Below, in pieces: positions 49,216 through 58,180 of a DNA stretch of 64,000 bases. A model generated the notes under the pieces. The model searched no databases. It had not been told where the DNA came from and saw only the letters and a program-made list of their open reading frames with translations. Each line of letters opens with the position of its first letter. Position 1 is the first letter of the stretch. This stretch comes from Ruminiclostridium herbifermentans (lineage in GTDB: Bacteria > Bacillota > Clostridia > Acetivibrionales > DSM-1351), in assembly GCF_005473905.2 (NCBI RefSeq), contig NZ_CP061336.1:1790501-1854500 (forward strand), given 5' to 3'. Position numbers and translations under genes: made by a program.

Positions 49216-49890
49216 ATGGCTAAGCTTGAATTTGATGATAGTCAAAACTTAATGAATTCTTTAAGGGGTAAGGTCTTTAACCAGCTTCGCAGTCAAATAT
49301 TGACGGGAGTATATAAACCGGGAGACAGTCTTATTGAACTGCGTTTATCAGAAGAACTTGGAGTTAGCAGAACACCTATTAGAGAAGCAATAAGACAGCT
49401 TGAGTTAGAAGGCTTGGTTCAGGCTATCCCCAATAAGGGTGCAGTGGTGAAGGGAATAACTGAACAAGATGTTGAAGACATATTTACAATCAGAATGAGG
49501 ATTGAAGGACTTGCTGCTAGATGGGCTGCTGAAAAGATTACTGAAGAGGAAATTAAGGAATTAAAAGAGGCACTTGAATTTGAAGAGTTCTACACCATGA
49601 AAAATGATGTTGAGCAGTTAATTAAATTTGACTCTAAATTCCATGATATTATTTTCAGAGCATGTAAAAGTAATCCTCTAATGCATATGCTGAGCACCTT
49701 TCATAACTATATACAAAGTGCTAGAAATAATTCCTTCCATACACCGGGAAGACCTGATAAAGCCTTTGAGGAGCATAAGGCTATATTTGAAGCCATATGC
49801 AGAAAGGATGCAGATACTGCAGAACAGCTAACTATTGCTCATATTAGAAACGCTAGTAATAACTATAATGAGTTGCATCAAAAAGGATAA
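49216..49890 (+). CDS. GntR family transcriptional regulator (FadR/FCD subgroup)
   Basis: A 224-residue regulator. The N-terminal winged helix (residues 15-80) contains LRSQILTGVYKPGDSL and LSEELGVSRTPIREAIRQLE, the GntR DNA-binding signature. The C-terminal helical FCD domain has the metal or effector ligands in IKFDSKFHDIIF and FEEHKAIFEAI. It lies behind aconitase and probably controls this citrate cluster; a matching palindrome overlaps the citrate synthase promoter. The ATG at 49216 has GGAGG five bases upstream in the sequence GACGTGGAGGTTAGT, almost identical to the leader of the RHH gene at 43.2 kb. Confidence 0.92.
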   Translation: MAKLEFDDSQNLMNSLRGKVFNQLRSQILTGVYKPGDSLIELRLSEELGVSRTPIREAIRQLELEGLVQAIPNKGAVVKGITEQDVEDIFTIRMRIEGLAARWAAEKITEEEIKELKEALEFEEFYTMKNDVEQLIKFDSKFHDIIFRACKSNPLMHMLSTFHNYIQSARNNSFHTPGRPDKAFEEHKAIFEAICRKDADTAEQLTIAHIRNASNNYNELHQKG

Positions 49891-49993
49891 AAAAATACAC
49901 AGTTATTTAAGTACCTTTAGTAGTGATTATAAGCTGTATTTTGGCGCAAGAGTTTTACAACATGAAATAAAAATTAAATAATATATAATTATT

Positions 49994-50033
49994 AAACACA
50001 GAGTAACTAGTTAATTGGTTCTCTGTGTTTTTT
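49994..50033 (+). terminator. Terminator of the GntR gene
   Basis: AAACACAGAG and CTCTGTGTTT form a perfect 10-bp outer stem with inner pairing, followed by six T residues. Confidence 0.88.
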
Positions 50034-50161
50034 GTATATTGCTTACTAGAATTGTAATTCCAATCTGTTTTTATATTCCATTAAATAGTATAATAGCGAT
50101 AGTTAGAATTCTTATAAATTCAGTTATATGTAGGTAAAATTTATTTTACGAGGTACAAATT

Positions 50162-52354
50162 ATGGGCATTTATTATAATGAAAAATCGAAATCCTTTAAC
50201 CTAATATCAAAGGATACAAGCTACGTTATTGCAATTGTAGATGATGCTCAGTTTTTAGGGCATGTTTATTTTGGACATAAAATAGCTGATGAGGATATAA
50301 ATTATCTCATGCGTTTGGAAGAACCTCCATATGTGCCTAGCAAGAATAATCGTGACAGGGCTGCGTTCATGGATAGCTTTCCTATGGAGTATCCTACTAG
50401 TGGACTGGGGGATTATAGAGAGCCATGTTTGCAGGTTGAAACACAAAATGGTATGACCACATGCAGTCTTTCATACATATCACATACTATTTATCAAGGA
50501 AAGCCAAAGCTGGAAGGGCTGCCTGCAACCTTTGGGGATGAACAGGACTGCTCTACACTAGAAATTACTTGTAAGGATAAATTGTTAAATCTAGAAATTG
50601 TTCTTTTATATACAGTTTTTGAGCAGCTAGATGTAATTACTAGAAGTGTACGCATTAGAAACTGCGGGAATGAGAGTATTATTCTTAGAAGAGTTCTTTC
50701 AGCCTGTGTAGACTTCGATACTATTGAAATGGATATGCTTACGCTAAATGGCTCATGGGGAAGGGAGTGTCATATATCCAGAAAAGCAATCAGCTATGGC
50801 ACACAAGGTGTTTCTTCAACTAGAGGAAAGTCAAGTCATCAGCATAATCCATTTATTGCTGTGATGGATAAGTCAGCCAACGAGGATTATGGCGAGGTTT
50901 TTGGCTTTAGTTTTGTTTATTCGGGAAACTTTTTTGCACAGGCCGAGGGCTGTCAGTTTGACACTACTCGTGTTGTTATGGGGATTAATCCCTATGATTT
51001 TGCATGGAAGTTAGATCCAAAGCAAATTTTTACGGCTCCTGAAGTGGTTATTGTTCACTCTGATCAGGGACTTGGCAAAATGTCTCGAACTTTCCACGAC
51101 TTATATAGAAATCATTTGATAAGAGGTAAATATAAGAATAAAAAGCGTCCTATTTTAATAAATAACTGGGAGGCAACATATTTTGATTTTGACACTGACA
51201 AGCTAATAGAGATTGCTAAAGAAGCAGCTAGTCTTGGTATAGAAATGCTGGTAATGGACGATGGCTGGTTTGGACATAGGAATGATGATAACAGCTCCTT
51301 AGGCGATTGGATAGTAAATGAAAATAAAATTAAGGGTGGTCTTAAATATCTGGTTGATGAAGTAAATAAGCTTGGATTAATGTTTGGTATTTGGTTTGAA
51401 CCTGAAATGATATCACCTGACTCAGATTTATATCGTGCTCATCCTGATTGGTGTATTCACATTGAAGGCAGAGTAGGAACTTTATCTAGAAATCAGTATG
51501 TATTAGATTTTTCAAGACAAGAAATTCGGGATTATGTATACGATTGTCTTAAAAGGATTTTATCAAGTGCCAATATTGAATACGTTAAATGGGATATGAA
51601 CCGACAGCTGAGCGAAGTTGGCAATAGTATTTTAGAGCCTGAGTGCCAAAGGGAATTGTGGCATAGATATGTGTTGGGCGTTTATGAGGTTATGGAGCGC
51701 TTGGTTAATGATTTTCCTAATATTTTATTAGAAAATTGCTCGGGGGGTGGAGGAAGATTTGACCCTGGAATGCTATACTACAGCCCTCAAATTTGGTGCT
51801 CTGATGATGCAGATGCAATTGAACGCTTAAAAATACAGCATGGCACTTCTCTAGTTTATCCAGTTTCTACAATGGGAGCTCATGTCAGTGATTGTCCAAA
51901 CCATACTGTTGGAAGAACAACGCCCTTTGAGACTAGAGGCTATGTTGCATTGTCTGGAACCTTTGGCTATGAACTGGACGTTACAAAAATATCTCAGCAG
52001 GATAGAAATTTGATTCCCAAGCAGGTAGAGTTATACCATAAATATAATGATTTAATACGTACAGGCGATTTATATCGTATCAGTAATATATTTGAAAACC
52101 AGGATTATAGCTGTGTTGAATATGTCTCAAAGGATAAAAATGAAGCGTTAGTAATTTATGTTCAAGTACTTAACAGACCTAACTACCATAGCAGGAGAGT
52201 TTGCCTGAAGGGGTTAGAGGAAAACTGCTTATACCGAAATGAGGAAACGGGTAAAGTGATTTCTGGCAGTGCATTAATGCATGGAGGAGTGCTGATGACA
52301 GATATGTTTGGCGACTTTAAAGGAAAGTTATTGCATTTTGTTCGGGTAGAGTGA
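50162..52354 (+). CDS. Alpha-galactosidase, GH36
   Basis: A 730-residue GH36 alpha-galactosidase, without a signal peptide and so cytoplasmic. It hydrolyses alpha-1,6-galactosides such as melibiose and raffinose. The catalytic nucleophile is in YVKWDMNRQ and the acid/base in WCSDDADAIERLKIQHG. MVMDDGWFGHRNDDNSSLGD and CSGGGGRFDPG are strongly conserved in the family. Normal full length. GAGGT precedes the ATG. No transporter or sugar regulator adjoins it, so regulation cannot be read from context. Confidence 0.96.
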   Translation: MGIYYNEKSKSFNLISKDTSYVIAIVDDAQFLGHVYFGHKIADEDINYLMRLEEPPYVPSKNNRDRAAFMDSFPMEYPTSGLGDYREPCLQVETQNGMTTCSLSYISHTIYQGKPKLEGLPATFGDEQDCSTLEITCKDKLLNLEIVLLYTVFEQLDVITRSVRIRNCGNESIILRRVLSACVDFDTIEMDMLTLNGSWGRECHISRKAISYGTQGVSSTRGKSSHQHNPFIAVMDKSANEDYGEVFGFSFVYSGNFFAQAEGCQFDTTRVVMGINPYDFAWKLDPKQIFTAPEVVIVHSDQGLGKMSRTFHDLYRNHLIRGKYKNKKRPILINNWEATYFDFDTDKLIEIAKEAASLGIEMLVMDDGWFGHRNDDNSSLGDWIVNENKIKGGLKYLVDEVNKLGLMFGIWFEPEMISPDSDLYRAHPDWCIHIEGRVGTLSRNQYVLDFSRQEIRDYVYDCLKRILSSANIEYVKWDMNRQLSEVGNSILEPECQRELWHRYVLGVYEVMERLVNDFPNILLENCSGGGGRFDPGMLYYSPQIWCSDDADAIERLKIQHGTSLVYPVSTMGAHVSDCPNHTVGRTTPFETRGYVALSGTFGYELDVTKISQQDRNLIPKQVELYHKYNDLIRTGDLYRISNIFENQDYSCVEYVSKDKNEALVIYVQVLNRPNYHSRRVCLKGLEENCLYRNEETGKVISGSALMHGGVLMTDMFGDFKGKLLHFVRVE

Positions 52355-52464
52355 CATTAAATTTGATATACATTTTGACATCAATAGAATGAAAAAGTCA
52401 TGATATAATGCAGAACGTGTGATATTTGTTACACAATTAGTGTGATGTTGATGAATGGTGGGAT

Positions 52465-52938
52465 ATGATGTTTAGAGTTCGCTATTCTAATGTAAGTGAT
52501 GCTAAAATATTGGGAGAAATACATTTAAAGTCTTGGAAGGTTGCAAATAAAGGTATAGTACCAGATGAAATACTGTAAAATATCACAGTTGAGAAGAGGC
52601 AAAAATATTTTGAATATGCACTTTCAAACGGATTGGAAGAAGATGCTATTATATTTAGGAATAATGAATATGTTGGATTTATATGTTTAGGAAGATGCAG
52701 AAATACAGATAAAACGGACAATTGTGGTGAAATATGGGAATAGGTTCTGAATTAATAAATTGGGGCATAAACGAATTAAAGAAGAAATTATAATCAAGTA
52801 ATCTTATGGGTTCTTGAAAAAAATATAAGTGCAAGAAAGTTCTATGTAAAGATTGGCTTTAAACATGATGGAACAATTAAGGAGATAACTATAGGTGAAA
52901 AGTTAAAAGAATATAGATACGAAAAGACTATTCCATAA
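52465..52938 (+). pseudogene. GNAT acetyltransferase, decayed
   Basis: The start MMFRVRYSNVSDAKILGEIH and a ribosome-binding site GGTGGGAT are intact. The frame then meets TAA after about 37 codons, continues as NITVEKRQKYFEYALSNGLE..., meets TAG near 52742, and after a frameshift gives VILWVLEKNISARKFYVKIG, the typical GNAT C-terminal motif, ending at 52938. Part of the acetyl-CoA-binding region also appears to be missing. At least two stops and one or two frameshifts make a functional protein impossible. Confidence 0.88.
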
Positions 52939-53025
52939 TATTCACTCCGAAGTAAGTTATAGGCAATATCTGGCGAGATCCTTAAATATATAAGTATGTT
53001 TCGATATTTTTTATATAGCCTAATA

Positions 53026-53058
53026 AAAAAACAACTTTGCTTTTGCAAAGTTGTTTTT
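53026..53058 (-). terminator. Terminator of tRNA-Glu
   Basis: AAAACAACTTTGC and GCAAAGTTGTTTT form a long perfect stem with a 4-base loop, with T-runs on both strands. It lies directly downstream of tRNA-Glu on the minus strand. Confidence 0.85.
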
Positions 53059-53133
53059 GGTGACTCATAGGGGATTCGAACCCCTGTTGCCGCCGTGAGA
53101 GGGCGGAGTCTTAGGCCACTTGACCAATGAGCC
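53058..53133 (-). tRNA. tRNA-Glu(CTC)
   Basis: Read on the minus strand: acceptor GGCTCAT/ATGAGTC with one G-T pair, anticodon stem CCGCC/GGCGG with loop CTCTCAC (anticodon CTC), T-stem AGGGG/CCCCT with loop TTCGAAT, and encoded CCA. It decodes the glutamate codon GAG. It lies at the edge of a small accessory pocket holding a pseudogene and a defence gene. Confidence 0.9.
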
Positions 53134-53376
53134 AATTCTTAGGACAAAAGCTATTATAACATGGGTAAGTGGGCATGTCAATAAGGAAAATATTTATAAA
53201 AATATTTGGAGAAAAATTAATATAAATATGTACTAGTAAAATTTATATTAATTTACAAATTATTATTAAATTTATATAATAGTAATGCTTAATATTGGAT
53301 TAATTAAAACATATTGTAAAATAATAGATAGTGTAAATTAAGTTAATTTTTTTTGTGTAGAATGAATTAATAAAAC
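53134..53376. other. Non-coding region between tRNA-Glu and the RT-nitrilase gene
   Basis: About 240 bases of very AT-rich DNA. Since several defence reverse transcriptases have a flanking non-coding RNA, I looked for structure and saw no stable stem. The promoter is not obvious. Confidence 0.35.
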
Positions 53377-56300
53377 TTGAATACTGATAAGGAGATGGTG
53401 GCCATAAATTACATAGAGGAAGTCAAAAGAGCATATAGAAAACTAAAGGGAACTGTTTATTTAGACAAAACAGTACCTTTTTTAAGAAATCGCATTGTAT
53501 CATTTGAAGGAAAAGGTTTAGATAGTAGACTAGAGGCCATAGGCAAAAAACTAAATGGTTCAAATAAAGTATGGGAAGATTTTATTGATGAAATCTTGAG
53601 TTCAATAAAAGTATTAACTTTTCCAAAGTTAGTAACTACTGGTGAGGAAAAAAGAAACGATGAGCCCATATTTATTACAAACAAACCTGTAGGTACGGTC
53701 TTTATAGAAAAATATAATAATTATATTGATATGAGTGTAGAAGGCCATATTTTAGGTGTTTTGTGGATTTTAACTATAGGATATAAAATTGATAATGAAT
53801 TAATAGAAACATGCTATGGAAATAGATTATATGAAAATTTAAAGAAGGAAAAGGAATGTAGGACAACATCTTCTCCCAATTTAATGAAACCGTATTTTCA
53901 GCAATATGAAAGTTGGAGAGATGAAGGATTAAAAATGGCAGAAGATTGTCTCAAAGAACATAATAAAAATATAATTATTACAATGTTAGACTTATCAAAA
54001 TATTATTATAGTGTTGAACTAGATTTTAAATCATATAAAAAATTAACAGAAAGATTTACTGAAGATGGAAGTAAGTGCGAACAAAGATTAAATGAATTTG
54101 TATTTAGAGTATTTTATAGATATAGTTGCTTTTTTAATTTAGAAGCAAAATATGCTTTTTTACCAATAGGATTTTTGCCGTCAAATATTATTGCTAATTA
54201 TTACTTAAATGATTTTGATCAAAATGTAATTACTAACTTAAACCCTATGTATTATGGGCGTTATGTAGATGATATTATAATTGTTTCACAAGTAGACAAA
54301 AAATCTGAACTTTTAGAAGGTTTAGATAAGAATGGAATAAGTGGCATTATAGAAAAAACTATAGAAACCTTACATAATAAAAAAATTATTGCAATGGAAA
54401 ATAATAAGTATTATTTGACTAATTACAAAAAGCTTGAAGTACAGCAAGAAAAGTTTAGGTTTTTTTATTTTGATAAAGCAGGGTCAATGGGAATACTTGA
54501 TAAAATCAGAAAAGATATTGCTAATAATACAAGTGAATTTAATTTTTTACCTATTGAAGCAGGAAGTTTAGAAAAGGATTATTCAAATATATTTAAGCTG
54601 GAGAGAGATGATTCTGTAAATAAAATTCGTGGTATTAGTAAAGCGCAAATAGGCAAATATGAATTGTCAAAAACAATTGCAAAACATTTGTCGATTTGCA
54701 AATTTGTTGATGGTTCTGGAAACATTAAGTTTATGGAGGAATTGGATAAAATATTTGATAATCAAACAATATTAAATAATTATACTTTATGGGAAAGTGT
54801 TTTTAATTATTATATTGTTAATAACCAGTTTGATAGGTTAAAAGAGTTTGTTTATAAGATTATTGATAGTTTTAGTTCAAAAAATATGGATGAAACAACG
54901 TATAAAATAAAAGAATATGCTAGTCTAAAGAATCAAGATATATGGAGTGTTAAGGATAGCTTATTTTTATTTTTGGTGGCATGTTTAGCTAGAGCAACAT
55001 CTATAGTTTGGGGAAAAAAAATAAAAGCTATTTTAGAAGATATACTACAAGAATTGGGTAATAGTACTACTAATAATGAAATAATTAATTTGTTAACATT
55101 TGATAATTTCCAAAACAAACGAAGGTTGTATGTTCATTCACGTATGGTTAATAAATATCTTATACCAATTACTATTGAAGAATGTATGACAGTATATAAA
55201 CCTAATGATGATGAAAATGAAGCTAAAATGTATTCTATTGATGAATATTTAAAAGCAAAAGGTGATAATAACATTGGTTCATATAAGTATAGTCCGTTTA
55301 TTGTAAAGCCTTTTGAAATTGCTTTTACAGATATCCTTAAGAGTATAAAAAAAGGTGAGGATGAAATAGAATCTAATGAATCAATATCAGATAGTATGAT
55401 TAAAGAATACGGTAAAAACTTTTGGGATGAAAGTTGCTTAGCACTTAATAAATACATAGTTAATATAGAAATATTTAAAAAAAATAAGAGAAAAAATAAA
55501 AGAAAAAATAAAAGAAAAAATAAAAGTGACAATGATAGAAATATTTCTGCAATTAAAATTTGTTCAGATAATAAAAAATCTAAATTTAGAATCGCAGTTG
55601 CAAATGTTCAAATTGATAAGAATGAGTTTGAAAATGTGTTACTAGATAAAAAGTATGATAAATCAAAAAGATACAATGAGATTGCATATATTGTAAATGA
55701 AGCAATAAAGCACGAAGCTGACATGCTTATAATGCCAGAGTCATATGTACCAATTGAATATTTACCACAGATACAACAAAAAGTTGTTGCTCATAACATG
55801 ATTATTGTTTGTGGTTTAGATCATATAAAGATTAATACGTCTAAAAAGAGTAAAGTGTATAATTTAATGGTTACATTACTACCTCTAAAAACAGATGACT
55901 TTTCATATACAATTCCATACTTTCATCAGAAAGTTCACTTTTCACCAAGTGAAAAAGGTATTATTGAAGATTACGGATTTGAGGCAATGGAGGGAAATGA
56001 GTATACATTGTTTGTTTGCAGTGATTTATGGTTTGTGCCATATTGCTGTTTTGAGTTAACATCAATAAAAGAAAGAAGCATATTCCAATCTTATGCTGAT
56101 TTAGTTGTAGGCGTGGAATGGAATAAAGATACTAAATATTTTGGAAATATTGTTGAATCATTAAGTAGAGATTTACATTGCTATTGTGCTCAAGCCAATA
56201 CTTCTGAATACGGTGATAGTCGTATAACACAACCTACAAGTAGTTCTATATCAAATATCGTTCAAGTTAAAGGAGGGCTAAACCCAACAATACTTGTTGG

Positions 56301-56445
56301 AGAAATTGATGTGAAAGCATTAAGGGAGTATCAATATATGGGCATTTGGGGACAAGATAAAAATAAAAAGTTTAAACCAACTCCACCCAATTTAGATAAG
56401 GAAATTGTGTTTAGAAAAATGCATGGTAATTACTTTAATGAGTAA
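53377..56445 (+). CDS. Reverse transcriptase-nitrilase fusion, defence-associated RT type 1 (DRT1/UG1)
   Basis: A 1022-residue fusion. The reverse transcriptase part (about 60-400) has catalytic Asp205 in MLDLSKYYYS, the motif-B-like LPIGFLPSNIIANYYLNDF and YGRYVDDIIIV with the YVDD box at 296-299. A helical middle follows to about 700, then a basic KRKN-repeat linker (701-716). The C-terminal nitrilase domain (about 733-1005) keeps the full triad Glu788 (MPESYVP), Lys852 (HQKVHFSP) and Cys881 (CSDLW). This architecture is that of UG1/DRT1, which protects bacteria from some phages. No partner gene adjoins it. The start is uncertain: TTG 53377 has no clear site, and the ATG at 53395 directly abuts AAGGAG. 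The gene looks intact. Confidence 0.9.
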   Translation: MNTDKEMVAINYIEEVKRAYRKLKGTVYLDKTVPFLRNRIVSFEGKGLDSRLEAIGKKLNGSNKVWEDFIDEILSSIKVLTFPKLVTTGEEKRNDEPIFITNKPVGTVFIEKYNNYIDMSVEGHILGVLWILTIGYKIDNELIETCYGNRLYENLKKEKECRTTSSPNLMKPYFQQYESWRDEGLKMAEDCLKEHNKNIIITMLDLSKYYYSVELDFKSYKKLTERFTEDGSKCEQRLNEFVFRVFYRYSCFFNLEAKYAFLPIGFLPSNIIANYYLNDFDQNVITNLNPMYYGRYVDDIIIVSQVDKKSELLEGLDKNGISGIIEKTIETLHNKKIIAMENNKYYLTNYKKLEVQQEKFRFFYFDKAGSMGILDKIRKDIANNTSEFNFLPIEAGSLEKDYSNIFKLERDDSVNKIRGISKAQIGKYELSKTIAKHLSICKFVDGSGNIKFMEELDKIFDNQTILNNYTLWESVFNYYIVNNQFDRLKEFVYKIIDSFSSKNMDETTYKIKEYASLKNQDIWSVKDSLFLFLVACLARATSIVWGKKIKAILEDILQELGNSTTNNEIINLLTFDNFQNKRRLYVHSRMVNKYLIPITIEECMTVYKPNDDENEAKMYSIDEYLKAKGDNNIGSYKYSPFIVKPFEIAFTDILKSIKKGEDEIESNESISDSMIKEYGKNFWDESCLALNKYIVNIEIFKKNKRKNKRKNKRKNKSDNDRNISAIKICSDNKKSKFRIAVANVQIDKNEFENVLLDKKYDKSKRYNEIAYIVNEAIKHEADMLIMPESYVPIEYLPQIQQKVVAHNMIIVCGLDHIKINTSKKSKVYNLMVTLLPLKTDDFSYTIPYFHQKVHFSPSEKGIIEDYGFEAMEGNEYTLFVCSDLWFVPYCCFELTSIKERSIFQSYADLVVGVEWNKDTKYFGNIVESLSRDLHCYCAQANTSEYGDSRITQPTSSSISNIVQVKGGLNPTILVGEIDVKALREYQYMGIWGQDKNKKFKPTPPNLDKEIVFRKMHGNYFNE
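55483..55530 (+). repeat. 12-bp microsatellite in the RT-nitrilase linker
   Basis: The unit AATAAAAGAAAA repeats about four times (the first copy has one change) and encodes NKRK. Because the unit is 12 bases, copy-number change would lengthen or shorten the basic linker in steps of four residues without a frameshift. Confidence 0.85.
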
Positions 56446-56578
56446 AACCTACATTTATAAAGTTCAGTTATTATATCTGTGATAGATATGTTAATTGCTA
56501 AATAATTATTAGTTATATAGTGCTAAATTACTAAAAGTATTTATATTTATAACTTAAATATCCCAACTTTTATGTTAT

Positions 56579-56617
56579 AATAACTCCTGTATATTTTTTC
56601 AATACAGGAGTTATTTT
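56579..56617 (+). terminator. Terminator after the RT-nitrilase gene
   Basis: AATAACTCCTGTAT and ATACAGGAGTTATT form a perfect 14-bp stem followed by TTTATGG, about 135 bases beyond the stop codon. Confidence 0.8.
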
Positions 56618-56767
56618 ATGGATTGTGGTTTGTGTTAGTAGTTGCTGTTATAAGAAGGATTAGCGTAACATAGCACAAATCAGAGTTTCTGTATTGAACG
56701 ATTTTAATATTTTTGAATGATTTTAATATTTATGTGCCTTATTGGGTGTGGAGGTTATTTTTCTTTT

Positions 56768-58180
56768 ATGAGATTACCAGAAGAATTTGTGAAAAAAATG
56801 CAGGAGCTGTTGGGTGATGAATTCAACAGCTACCTTGAATCATATAGCAAGCCTAGATTTTATGGTTTGCGTGTTAATACATTAAAAATATCAGTTGAGG
56901 AGTTCTTGAAAATATCACCTTTTCATTTGAAACCTGTTCCATGGACAACAGATGGGTTTTATTATCAAGAAGGAGATAATCCAGGCAGACATCCTTATTA
57001 TTATGCAGGACTTTATTATATTCAAGAGCCAAGTGCAATGCTTCCTGGTGCAGTAATAGGTGTAAAGCCAGGAGACAAGGTTTTAGACCTATGTGCGGCC
57101 CCTGGTGGAAAAACTGTTCAAATGGCTGCTCAAATGAAGGGGCAAGGGTTATTGGTGGCAAACGATATTAATGCTGATAGGGTTAAAGCATTGGTTAAAA
57201 ATATAGAACTATGTGGTATAAAAAATGCAGTGGTTTTAAATGAAACACCTGAAAGAATTGCTAATAATTTTGAAGGATATTTTGATAAAATACTAGTTGA
57301 TGCACCCTGCTCAGGAGAAGGAATGTTCCGTAAGGATGAAGATGCTGTTAGAAGCTGGGAAAAATATAAATGTGAGAAATGCTGCTCTATGCAATGGGAT
57401 ATTCTTCAGCAGGTTGACAGAATGTTAAAGCCGGGTGGAAGCATTTTATATTCTACTTGTACTTTTTCACCAGAAGAAGACGAATTAATGATAGAGAGAT
57501 TTATGAATGAGCATGAGGGTGAGTATGAACTGGTTGAAATACCTAAAGTGGGTGGAATAGAAGGCGGACGTACTGAGTGGTCAAATGGTGATTATGACTT
57601 TAGCAAGACAGCAAGACTTTGGCCGCACAAATTAGATGGTGAAGGACATTTTGCAGCCTTACTAAGAAAGAAGGACAAAATTTGTGAGCACAATAGTCTA
57701 TCTGCTACAATGTATAATGCAAGAAAATGGGAAAAAGCTAATGCTATTCATGATTTTGATGACTTGAAAAAATTTGACCCACAGCTTGCAGATTTCATTA
57801 TAAATAACACAAGTTTGAAATTAGAGGGCTATGCTTTTAAAAAGGGAAATAATATTTATTATCTGCCAGAAAATTGCCCAGAATTATCTGGCCTAAAGGT
57901 TGCAAAGTTTGGTTGGTATTTAGGTGAAATTGGACAAAAGGGATTTGTGCCATCTCATTCATTTGCTATTTCATTAAATAGTAACGAAATTAAGAATAAG
58001 ATAGATTTTTCAACAGATTCAAGAGAGGTAAATAGTTATCTAAAGGGAGAAACACTTATGGTATCTGGAGAAAAAGGATTTACAGGTGTTTGTGTAGAAG
58101 GTTATATATTAGGCTGGGCAAAGCAAACAGGAGACATGCTAAAGAACCTATATCCAAAAGGATGGAGAAAGATGTCATAA
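56768..58180 (+). CDS. rsmF: RNA (cytosine-5-)-methyltransferase, RsmF/NOL1-NOP2-Sun family
   Basis: A 470-residue SAM-dependent methyltransferase that modifies cytosine C5 in rRNA or tRNA. The SAM motif VLDLCAAPGGKTVQMAAQ, the motif-IV cysteine in VDAPCSGEGMFRKD and the catalytic cysteine in YSTCTFSPEEDE are intact. The C-terminal third carries an RsmF-type PUA-like RNA-binding domain (GYAFKKGNNIYYLPENCP, ending LGWAKQTGDMLKNLYPKGWR). The ATG at 56768 begins the family sequence MRLPEEFVKKMQ; its GGAGG lies rather far (13 bases) upstream. A pseudouridine synthase gene follows, so both may modify rRNA. Confidence 0.93.
   Translation: MRLPEEFVKKMQELLGDEFNSYLESYSKPRFYGLRVNTLKISVEEFLKISPFHLKPVPWTTDGFYYQEGDNPGRHPYYYAGLYYIQEPSAMLPGAVIGVKPGDKVLDLCAAPGGKTVQMAAQMKGQGLLVANDINADRVKALVKNIELCGIKNAVVLNETPERIANNFEGYFDKILVDAPCSGEGMFRKDEDAVRSWEKYKCEKCCSMQWDILQQVDRMLKPGGSILYSTCTFSPEEDELMIERFMNEHEGEYELVEIPKVGGIEGGRTEWSNGDYDFSKTARLWPHKLDGEGHFAALLRKKDKICEHNSLSATMYNARKWEKANAIHDFDDLKKFDPQLADFIINNTSLKLEGYAFKKGNNIYYLPENCPELSGLKVAKFGWYLGEIGQKGFVPSHSFAISLNSNEIKNKIDFSTDSREVNSYLKGETLMVSGEKGFTGVCVEGYILGWAKQTGDMLKNLYPKGWRKMS

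Follow-up and report, generated by a model that had tools for sequence, protein, structure and literature searches.

A single reading frame on the chromosome of Ruminiclostridium herbifermentans joins a reverse transcriptase (RT) to a nitrilase-fold domain, which raises the question of which RT-based defence family this fusion belongs to and how its two activities might work together. The window examined here is a 64,000-nucleotide stretch of that chromosome, and the features of the gene itself are as follows.

53377-56445, plus strand: UG5-nitrilase RT fusion gene, 1022 aa counted from the TTG, with a true start perhaps slightly downstream
53252-53280, plus strand: best sigma-70-like promoter upstream of the gene (TTTACA-17-TATAAT, 11/12), a consensus match only
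55479-55526, plus strand: 12-bp A-rich in-frame repeat in four copies (KNKR-type linker), immediately N-terminal of the nitrilase domain

The genome, a single contig of 4.82 Mb, contains one copy of the gene, which forms one open frame with zero internal stops. No Shine-Dalgarno sequence precedes the TTG at 53377, and the only good one (AAGGAG, ~53388-53393) lies within the reading frame, so the protein may start a few residues after the TTG; candidate start codons besides the TTG are ATG 53395, GTG 53398, and ATA 53404. Promoter-like sites are no more frequent in the region around the gene than in shuffled sequence. The G+C content is 26.9% (17.9% at third positions), below that of the flanking rsmF and GH36 galactosidase genes (36-38%). 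Pfam RVT_1 matches residues 179-321 (E=7e-12), and CN_hydrolase matches residues 741-986 below threshold (E=0.002). The nitrilase identity of the C-terminal domain is nonetheless settled by the PADLOC RT-nitrilase model together with fold comparison, in which the PDB matches listed are carbamoylases, amidases, nitrilases, and others of the nitrilase superfamily. The AlphaFold2 model, built from nine sequences, has a mediocre mean pLDDT of 62.5, the nitrilase half being the better one, and no solved RT-nitrilase appears among its listed fold matches; both points weaken the reading developed below. The open frame, domain models, and fold comparison bear out the initial annotation in describing one 1022-residue gene that joins an RT to a nitrilase.

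The same annotation assigned the gene to the DRT1/UG1 type, and this does not hold. The PADLOC RT_UG5-nitrilase model covers residues 11-1008 with E=9.7e-226, whereas Drt1a matches the RT core only (residues 146-357, E=1e-19). An authentic Drt1a of the same phylum, used as a control, reverses these scores, with 1347 bits for Drt1a versus 120 bits for UG5-nitrilase, so the two models discriminate. Alignments of 13 and later 18 sequences drew on Bacillota, an E. coli and a Sinorhizobium plasmid, and four IMG/VR contigs. In a tree of the first 480 residues (the RT), the 18 UG5 rows fall on one side of a branch and UG1 stands apart (support 100/99); a tree of the last 330 residues (the nitrilase) likewise sets the UG5 proteins apart from UG1 (support 100/100). 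The window protein pairs with the relative L001 in both trees, and their broad concordance indicates that the two domains were inherited together. The best RT matches thus lie outside UG1 and do not favour group II introns: no group II intron, DGR, or retron model matches by profile, the only matching models being those for DRT, UG, general, or CRISPR-associated RTs, with UG5 far ahead. A UG5_small search yielded no new proteins. By profile and phylogeny, the window gene is a UG5-nitrilase, related to DRT1 but distinct from it.

Catalytic residues were assigned from the family alignments.

53989-53991, plus strand: RT motif A aspartate D205, invariant in the alignments
54262-54273, plus strand: RT motif C YVDD, residues 296-299, invariant
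55738-55740, plus strand: nitrilase E788, invariant
55930-55932, plus strand: nitrilase K852, invariant
55951-55953, plus strand: nitrilase E859, second glutamate of the tetrad, invariant
56047-56049, plus strand: nitrilase catalytic cysteine C891 (not C881), aligned with DRT1 C1116

Asp205 and the YVDD box had been placed correctly at the outset and are invariant across all relatives. A complete Glu788-Lys852-Cys881 triad had also been proposed, of which E788 and K852 stand. Position 881 is a cysteine in the window sequence alone among the aligned relatives, whereas C891, which sits in a C-[FYS]-[ED] motif, is invariant; C881 is therefore ruled out as the nucleophile. The tetrad E788-K852-E859-C891 is invariant in all 17 sequences compared. 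Mutation of C1116 abolishes defence by DRT1 (PMC13275509). Because C891 is invariant and aligned with that cysteine, the C881 mutant suggested earlier would have tested the wrong residue, and the correction matters since the proposed test would have been spoilt. With the cysteine moved to C891, the claim that both active sites are intact is upheld by residue conservation.

Rousset et al. (2022) reported phage resistance from a UG5 RT that carries a nitrilase at its C-terminus and is encoded on a P4 satellite together with a gene for a protein with one transmembrane segment (1TM) (PMC9122126). They placed this RT in a clade that differs from type I DRT and called the system reminiscent of type I DRT (PMC9122126). 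The window gene shares with this UG5-nitrilase type (DRT class 3) its RT clade, by profile and tree, and its RT-helical-nitrilase order; the catalytic residues, thumb serine, and tail are common to the aligned UG5 relatives, the validated protein's own sequence lying outside the comparison. It differs from the P4-satellite system in having its own A-rich repeat linker, which the alignment does not find in relatives, in its chromosomal position between tRNA-Glu and rsmF with no satellite or integrase genes, and in lacking the transmembrane partner. That lack weakens the reading developed below; such a partner is not known to define the type. No transmembrane partner ORF adjoins the window gene, and most Bacillota relatives likewise have none. 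Neither side of the gene carries any other noteworthy ORF, in keeping with the initial view that no accessory gene flanks it and lending support to a single-gene layout.

The mechanism of DRT1 was described by Neville et al. (2026). DRT1 makes A-rich DNA without a template, primed on S402, and the resulting protein-DNA adducts drive the formation of tetramers and filaments; the nitrilase pocket is capped by the C-terminal tail that an adjacent protomer contributes (PMC13275509). Defence requires the RT, S402, C1116, K1219, and A1223 (PMC13275509), so that for DRT1 there has been, since 2026, a partial answer to the nitrilase's role, which the initial annotation called unclear. Purified DRT1, DRT5S, and DRT5L all form covalent protein-DNA with no template added (PMC13275509). 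DRT5S and DRT5L are apparently the small and large types of UG5, and thus apparently of the same UG5 RT group as the window gene; what that study gives for them is covalent protein-DNA in vitro only. The window protein resembles DRT1 (UG1; PDB 9YFD) in being an RT-nitrilase fusion, in a tetrad whose C891 corresponds to C1116, in a tail whose K1000 corresponds to K1219, and in a serine at a similar distance past the thumb lysine. DRT1 differs in its RT clade, its length (1229 aa, with a larger middle region), its occasional pairing with drt1b, and its serine motif (S..P against SEFxxxP).

The candidate counterparts of the DRT1 priming serine and lid lie in the segment past the thumb and at the C-terminus.

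54532-54534, plus strand: S386, candidate protein-priming residue, 27 residues after the invariant thumb lysine K359
56371-56394, plus strand: tail motif F-K-P-T-P-P, corresponding to the DRT1 lid VKTxPAG (K1219); its K1000 is invariant

S386 is invariant in 18/18 sequences that share ~20-44% identity, and its spacing to K359 is constant at 27 residues. Of 69 serines, only S386 and S948, the latter in the nitrilase domain, are invariant in the family. By hand count, S402 or its equivalent lies 25-29 residues past the corresponding Lys-Thr in DRT1-type proteins. Local profile alignment of the S386 and S402 regions is weak and pairs serines three residues apart, so homology between the two is proposed only. 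S402 has moreover been reported as not conserved in other class 3 DRTs (PMC13275509), and this statement and the weak alignment both weigh against a shared priming residue. AlphaFold2 confidence is low at residues 383-449, the segment containing S386, which could stem from the shallow alignment alone; residues 382-478 of DRT1, including S402, are unresolved by cryo-EM (PMC13275509). Unrelated viral RTs were unusable as a control for S386, their thumb regions failing to align. We put at about even the chance that S386 is the residue that primes DNA synthesis.

A protein of the same defence class could instead prime on a tyrosine such as Y20, Y173, or Y177, with S386 merely capping the thumb helix. 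Y20 and Y173 do not vary in the alignment, Y177 hardly does, and the likely primers of DRT9 are tyrosines (PMC13213688). The model, however, puts these three residues in helices that precede the palm and not in a flexible segment, and DRT1, the closest characterised relative, uses a serine past the thumb. Tyrosine priming is accordingly an unlikely alternative to S386.

The family tail has the consensus F-K-x-x-P-x-[FG]. Profile-profile alignment (hhalign) places K1000 on the lysine of the UG1 tail VKTPPAG / VKT.PAG; we infer that this lysine is K1219 by counting back from H1229 on L134, the closest UG1 sequence. Whether the tail acts as an inter-subunit lid is, in our estimate, evenly balanced. 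We propose as new, at the level of residue predictions, the conservation and spacing of S386 and the match of the K1000 tail to DRT1.

The setting of the gene was compared among ten congeners.

53182-56560, no strand: approximate acquired stretch, where congeners have ~60-150 bp of other sequence between the tRNA-Glu and rsmF promoters
53058-53133, minus strand: tRNA-Glu(CTC), the 5' flank of the insert, promoter intact
56717-58180, plus strand: rsmF-type rRNA methyltransferase, a housekeeping neighbour; congener matches start ~10-16 residues later, consistent with the ATG at 56768

The rsmF and GntR genes are present in 10/10 congeners, and the RT-nitrilase gene is absent from every one of them. 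In six congeners, the region from tRNA-Glu to the rsmF promoter measures ~60-150 bp, and several carry a clean empty site at this locus. The insert (~53182-56560) sits between the divergent tRNA-Glu promoter, whose TTGACA-17-TATAAT on the minus strand is perfect, and the presumed rsmF promoter, marked by a conserved TATAAT near 56578, and leaves both intact. Judged by these genome comparisons, the gene was acquired horizontally and recently. The insert, which lies on the 5' (promoter) side of tRNA-Glu, showed no integrase, transposase, or terminal repeats; on both grounds, integrase-type tRNA insertion is ruled out.

The wider interval from GntR to rsmF (49890-57000) varies from 0.3 to 7.7 kb across the genus in genomes that have both genes on one contig, with tRNA-Glu mid-interval wherever it is found. 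In this genome, the interval has gained both the RT-nitrilase and a GH36 alpha-galactosidase; the congener cargo examined comprises an ECF sigma/DUF4179 pair, peptide deformylase, MerR, a dockerin lipase, and an M23 peptidase. The idea of a defence hotspot was rejected, since the interval is variable but the other cargo examined is not defensive. A near-perfect hairpin (56576-56618, plus strand) lies just past the conserved rsmF TATAAT box. In congeners, this hairpin bears the AGGAG ribosome site of rsmF, which suggests a regulated leader there, while here the rsmF start is ~150 bp further on. On the other side of the tRNA, positions 52468-52940 (plus strand) hold a small CDS remnant, interrupted by frame changes and, near 52577, by a stop; on visual inspection it resembles a GNAT acetyltransferase, and two fragments gave no Pfam match.

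Beyond the genus, the UG5-nitrilase model matches 6/399 genomes drawn from the phylum, the window genome counted. Relatives lie near a DISARM-like DrmD with a type IIG restriction-modification gene (L043), near the Wadjet genes JetC2 (L007) and JetC1 (L045), near a mad3-like gene (L046), and near a DpdF-like helicase (L003), and the E. coli UG5-nitrilase adjoins AbiE genes. The latter protein is carried by 253 of 5,426 complete E. coli genomes at >=99% identity to the plasmid copy. No close relatives were found in phage records; distant ones occur on plasmids and in IMG/VR contigs, searches of which otherwise gave unrelated RTs. At L141:4996-10210, the E. coli gene and the neighbouring AbiE genes are divergently oriented within a degraded tRNA-Thr island, and in the two genomes read the former is annotated as a hypothetical protein or an RNA-directed DNA polymerase. 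The copy beside Wadjet jetC (L045:6274-9128) has several stops between open parts of 367 and 479 aa and is probably decayed.

These observations support phage defence, the reading given in the initial annotation, as the function that the window gene very probably provides. The gene could instead encode an RT-amidase co-opted for metabolism or regulation, or be a silent passenger that now does nothing, and either would suit the housekeeping genes that surround it and the non-defensive cargo of the same interval in congeners. Such a role is nevertheless quite improbable, given the patchy distribution in genus and phylum, the relatives in defence islands, the validated relative, and the intact catalytic residues. 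More improbable still is that the RT copies an adjacent structured non-coding RNA, as in a class 2 DRT or retron-like system, and that the cDNA releases the nitrilase effector. The insert does contain ~190 bp of non-coding sequence upstream and 110 bp downstream of the gene, but these flanks fold no better than shuffles (z = +0.04, +0.04, -0.75, and -0.29), only the tRNA passes the gathering score in an Rfam scan of the locus, and class 3 DRTs make DNA without added template (PMC13275509). The folding and Rfam results led us to reject a non-coding RNA partner. A genuine DRT1/UG1 system, for which the identical domain order, the catalytic logic, and the published likeness to type I DRT might speak, has almost no probability given the profile scores, both trees, and the published clade statement (PMC9122126), and the DRT1 idea, refuted as membership, survives as "works like DRT1".

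We consider it likely overall that the gene is a single-gene anti-phage UG5-nitrilase acting through DRT1-like steps. By analogy with DRT1, its RT would synthesise short DNA with no nucleic acid as template, starting from a primer within the protein, S386, which would lie in a flexible stretch past the thumb helix; that the synthesis is template-free and protein-primed is, taken alone, also likely. Protein-DNA adducts would then drive oligomerisation of the nitrilase domains, and the tail F999-K1000-P-T-P-P would fold over the nitrilase pocket of the adjacent subunit, forming a lid with two roles, to complete the active site and to hold the assembly dormant. The lid might be freed by a phage replication factor that acts on the DNA or the filament, after which the C891 amidase would attack an essential small molecule and stop the infected cell. 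We infer from this scheme that the window gene would act by abortive infection.

Two loci carry the same two activities on separate adjacent genes. In L052:5983-8851, from IMG/VR, a UG5 RT (646 aa) is followed by a separate nitrilase (307 aa); L052 retains the S386, C891, and tail motifs on its separate polypeptides. In L047:7948-12052, a UG6/UG1-like RT (1072 aa) overlaps its own nitrilase gene (310 aa). Fusion is hence not obligatory. That UG5-nitrilases generally prime on S386 and gate the nitrilase by the K1000 tail, making the DRT1 mechanism general and extending it to the split form in L052, is a tentative proposal that we rate somewhat below even. If true, the "one-polypeptide retron" mechanism of DRT1 would hold for RT-nitrilases at large, contradicting what has been published on S402, and would also work with the domains on separate polypeptides. 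UG5-nitrilases are an experimentally validated defence type whose mechanism has been little studied, and the window gene is one more. Single mutants of S386 and K1000 would tell whether a protein-primed, lid-gated mechanism spans RT-nitrilases; the same question is open to testing in the E. coli homologue WP_000222103.1, and L052 could separate the two activities.

An RT-nitrilase carried by Leptospira plasmids (L037:1909-6140) has an RT half that matches both UG1 and UG5 poorly and sits on long branches in both trees, and it is possibly a distinct RT-nitrilase type. A gene for an RNase_T 3'-5' exonuclease begins 12 bp downstream of it.
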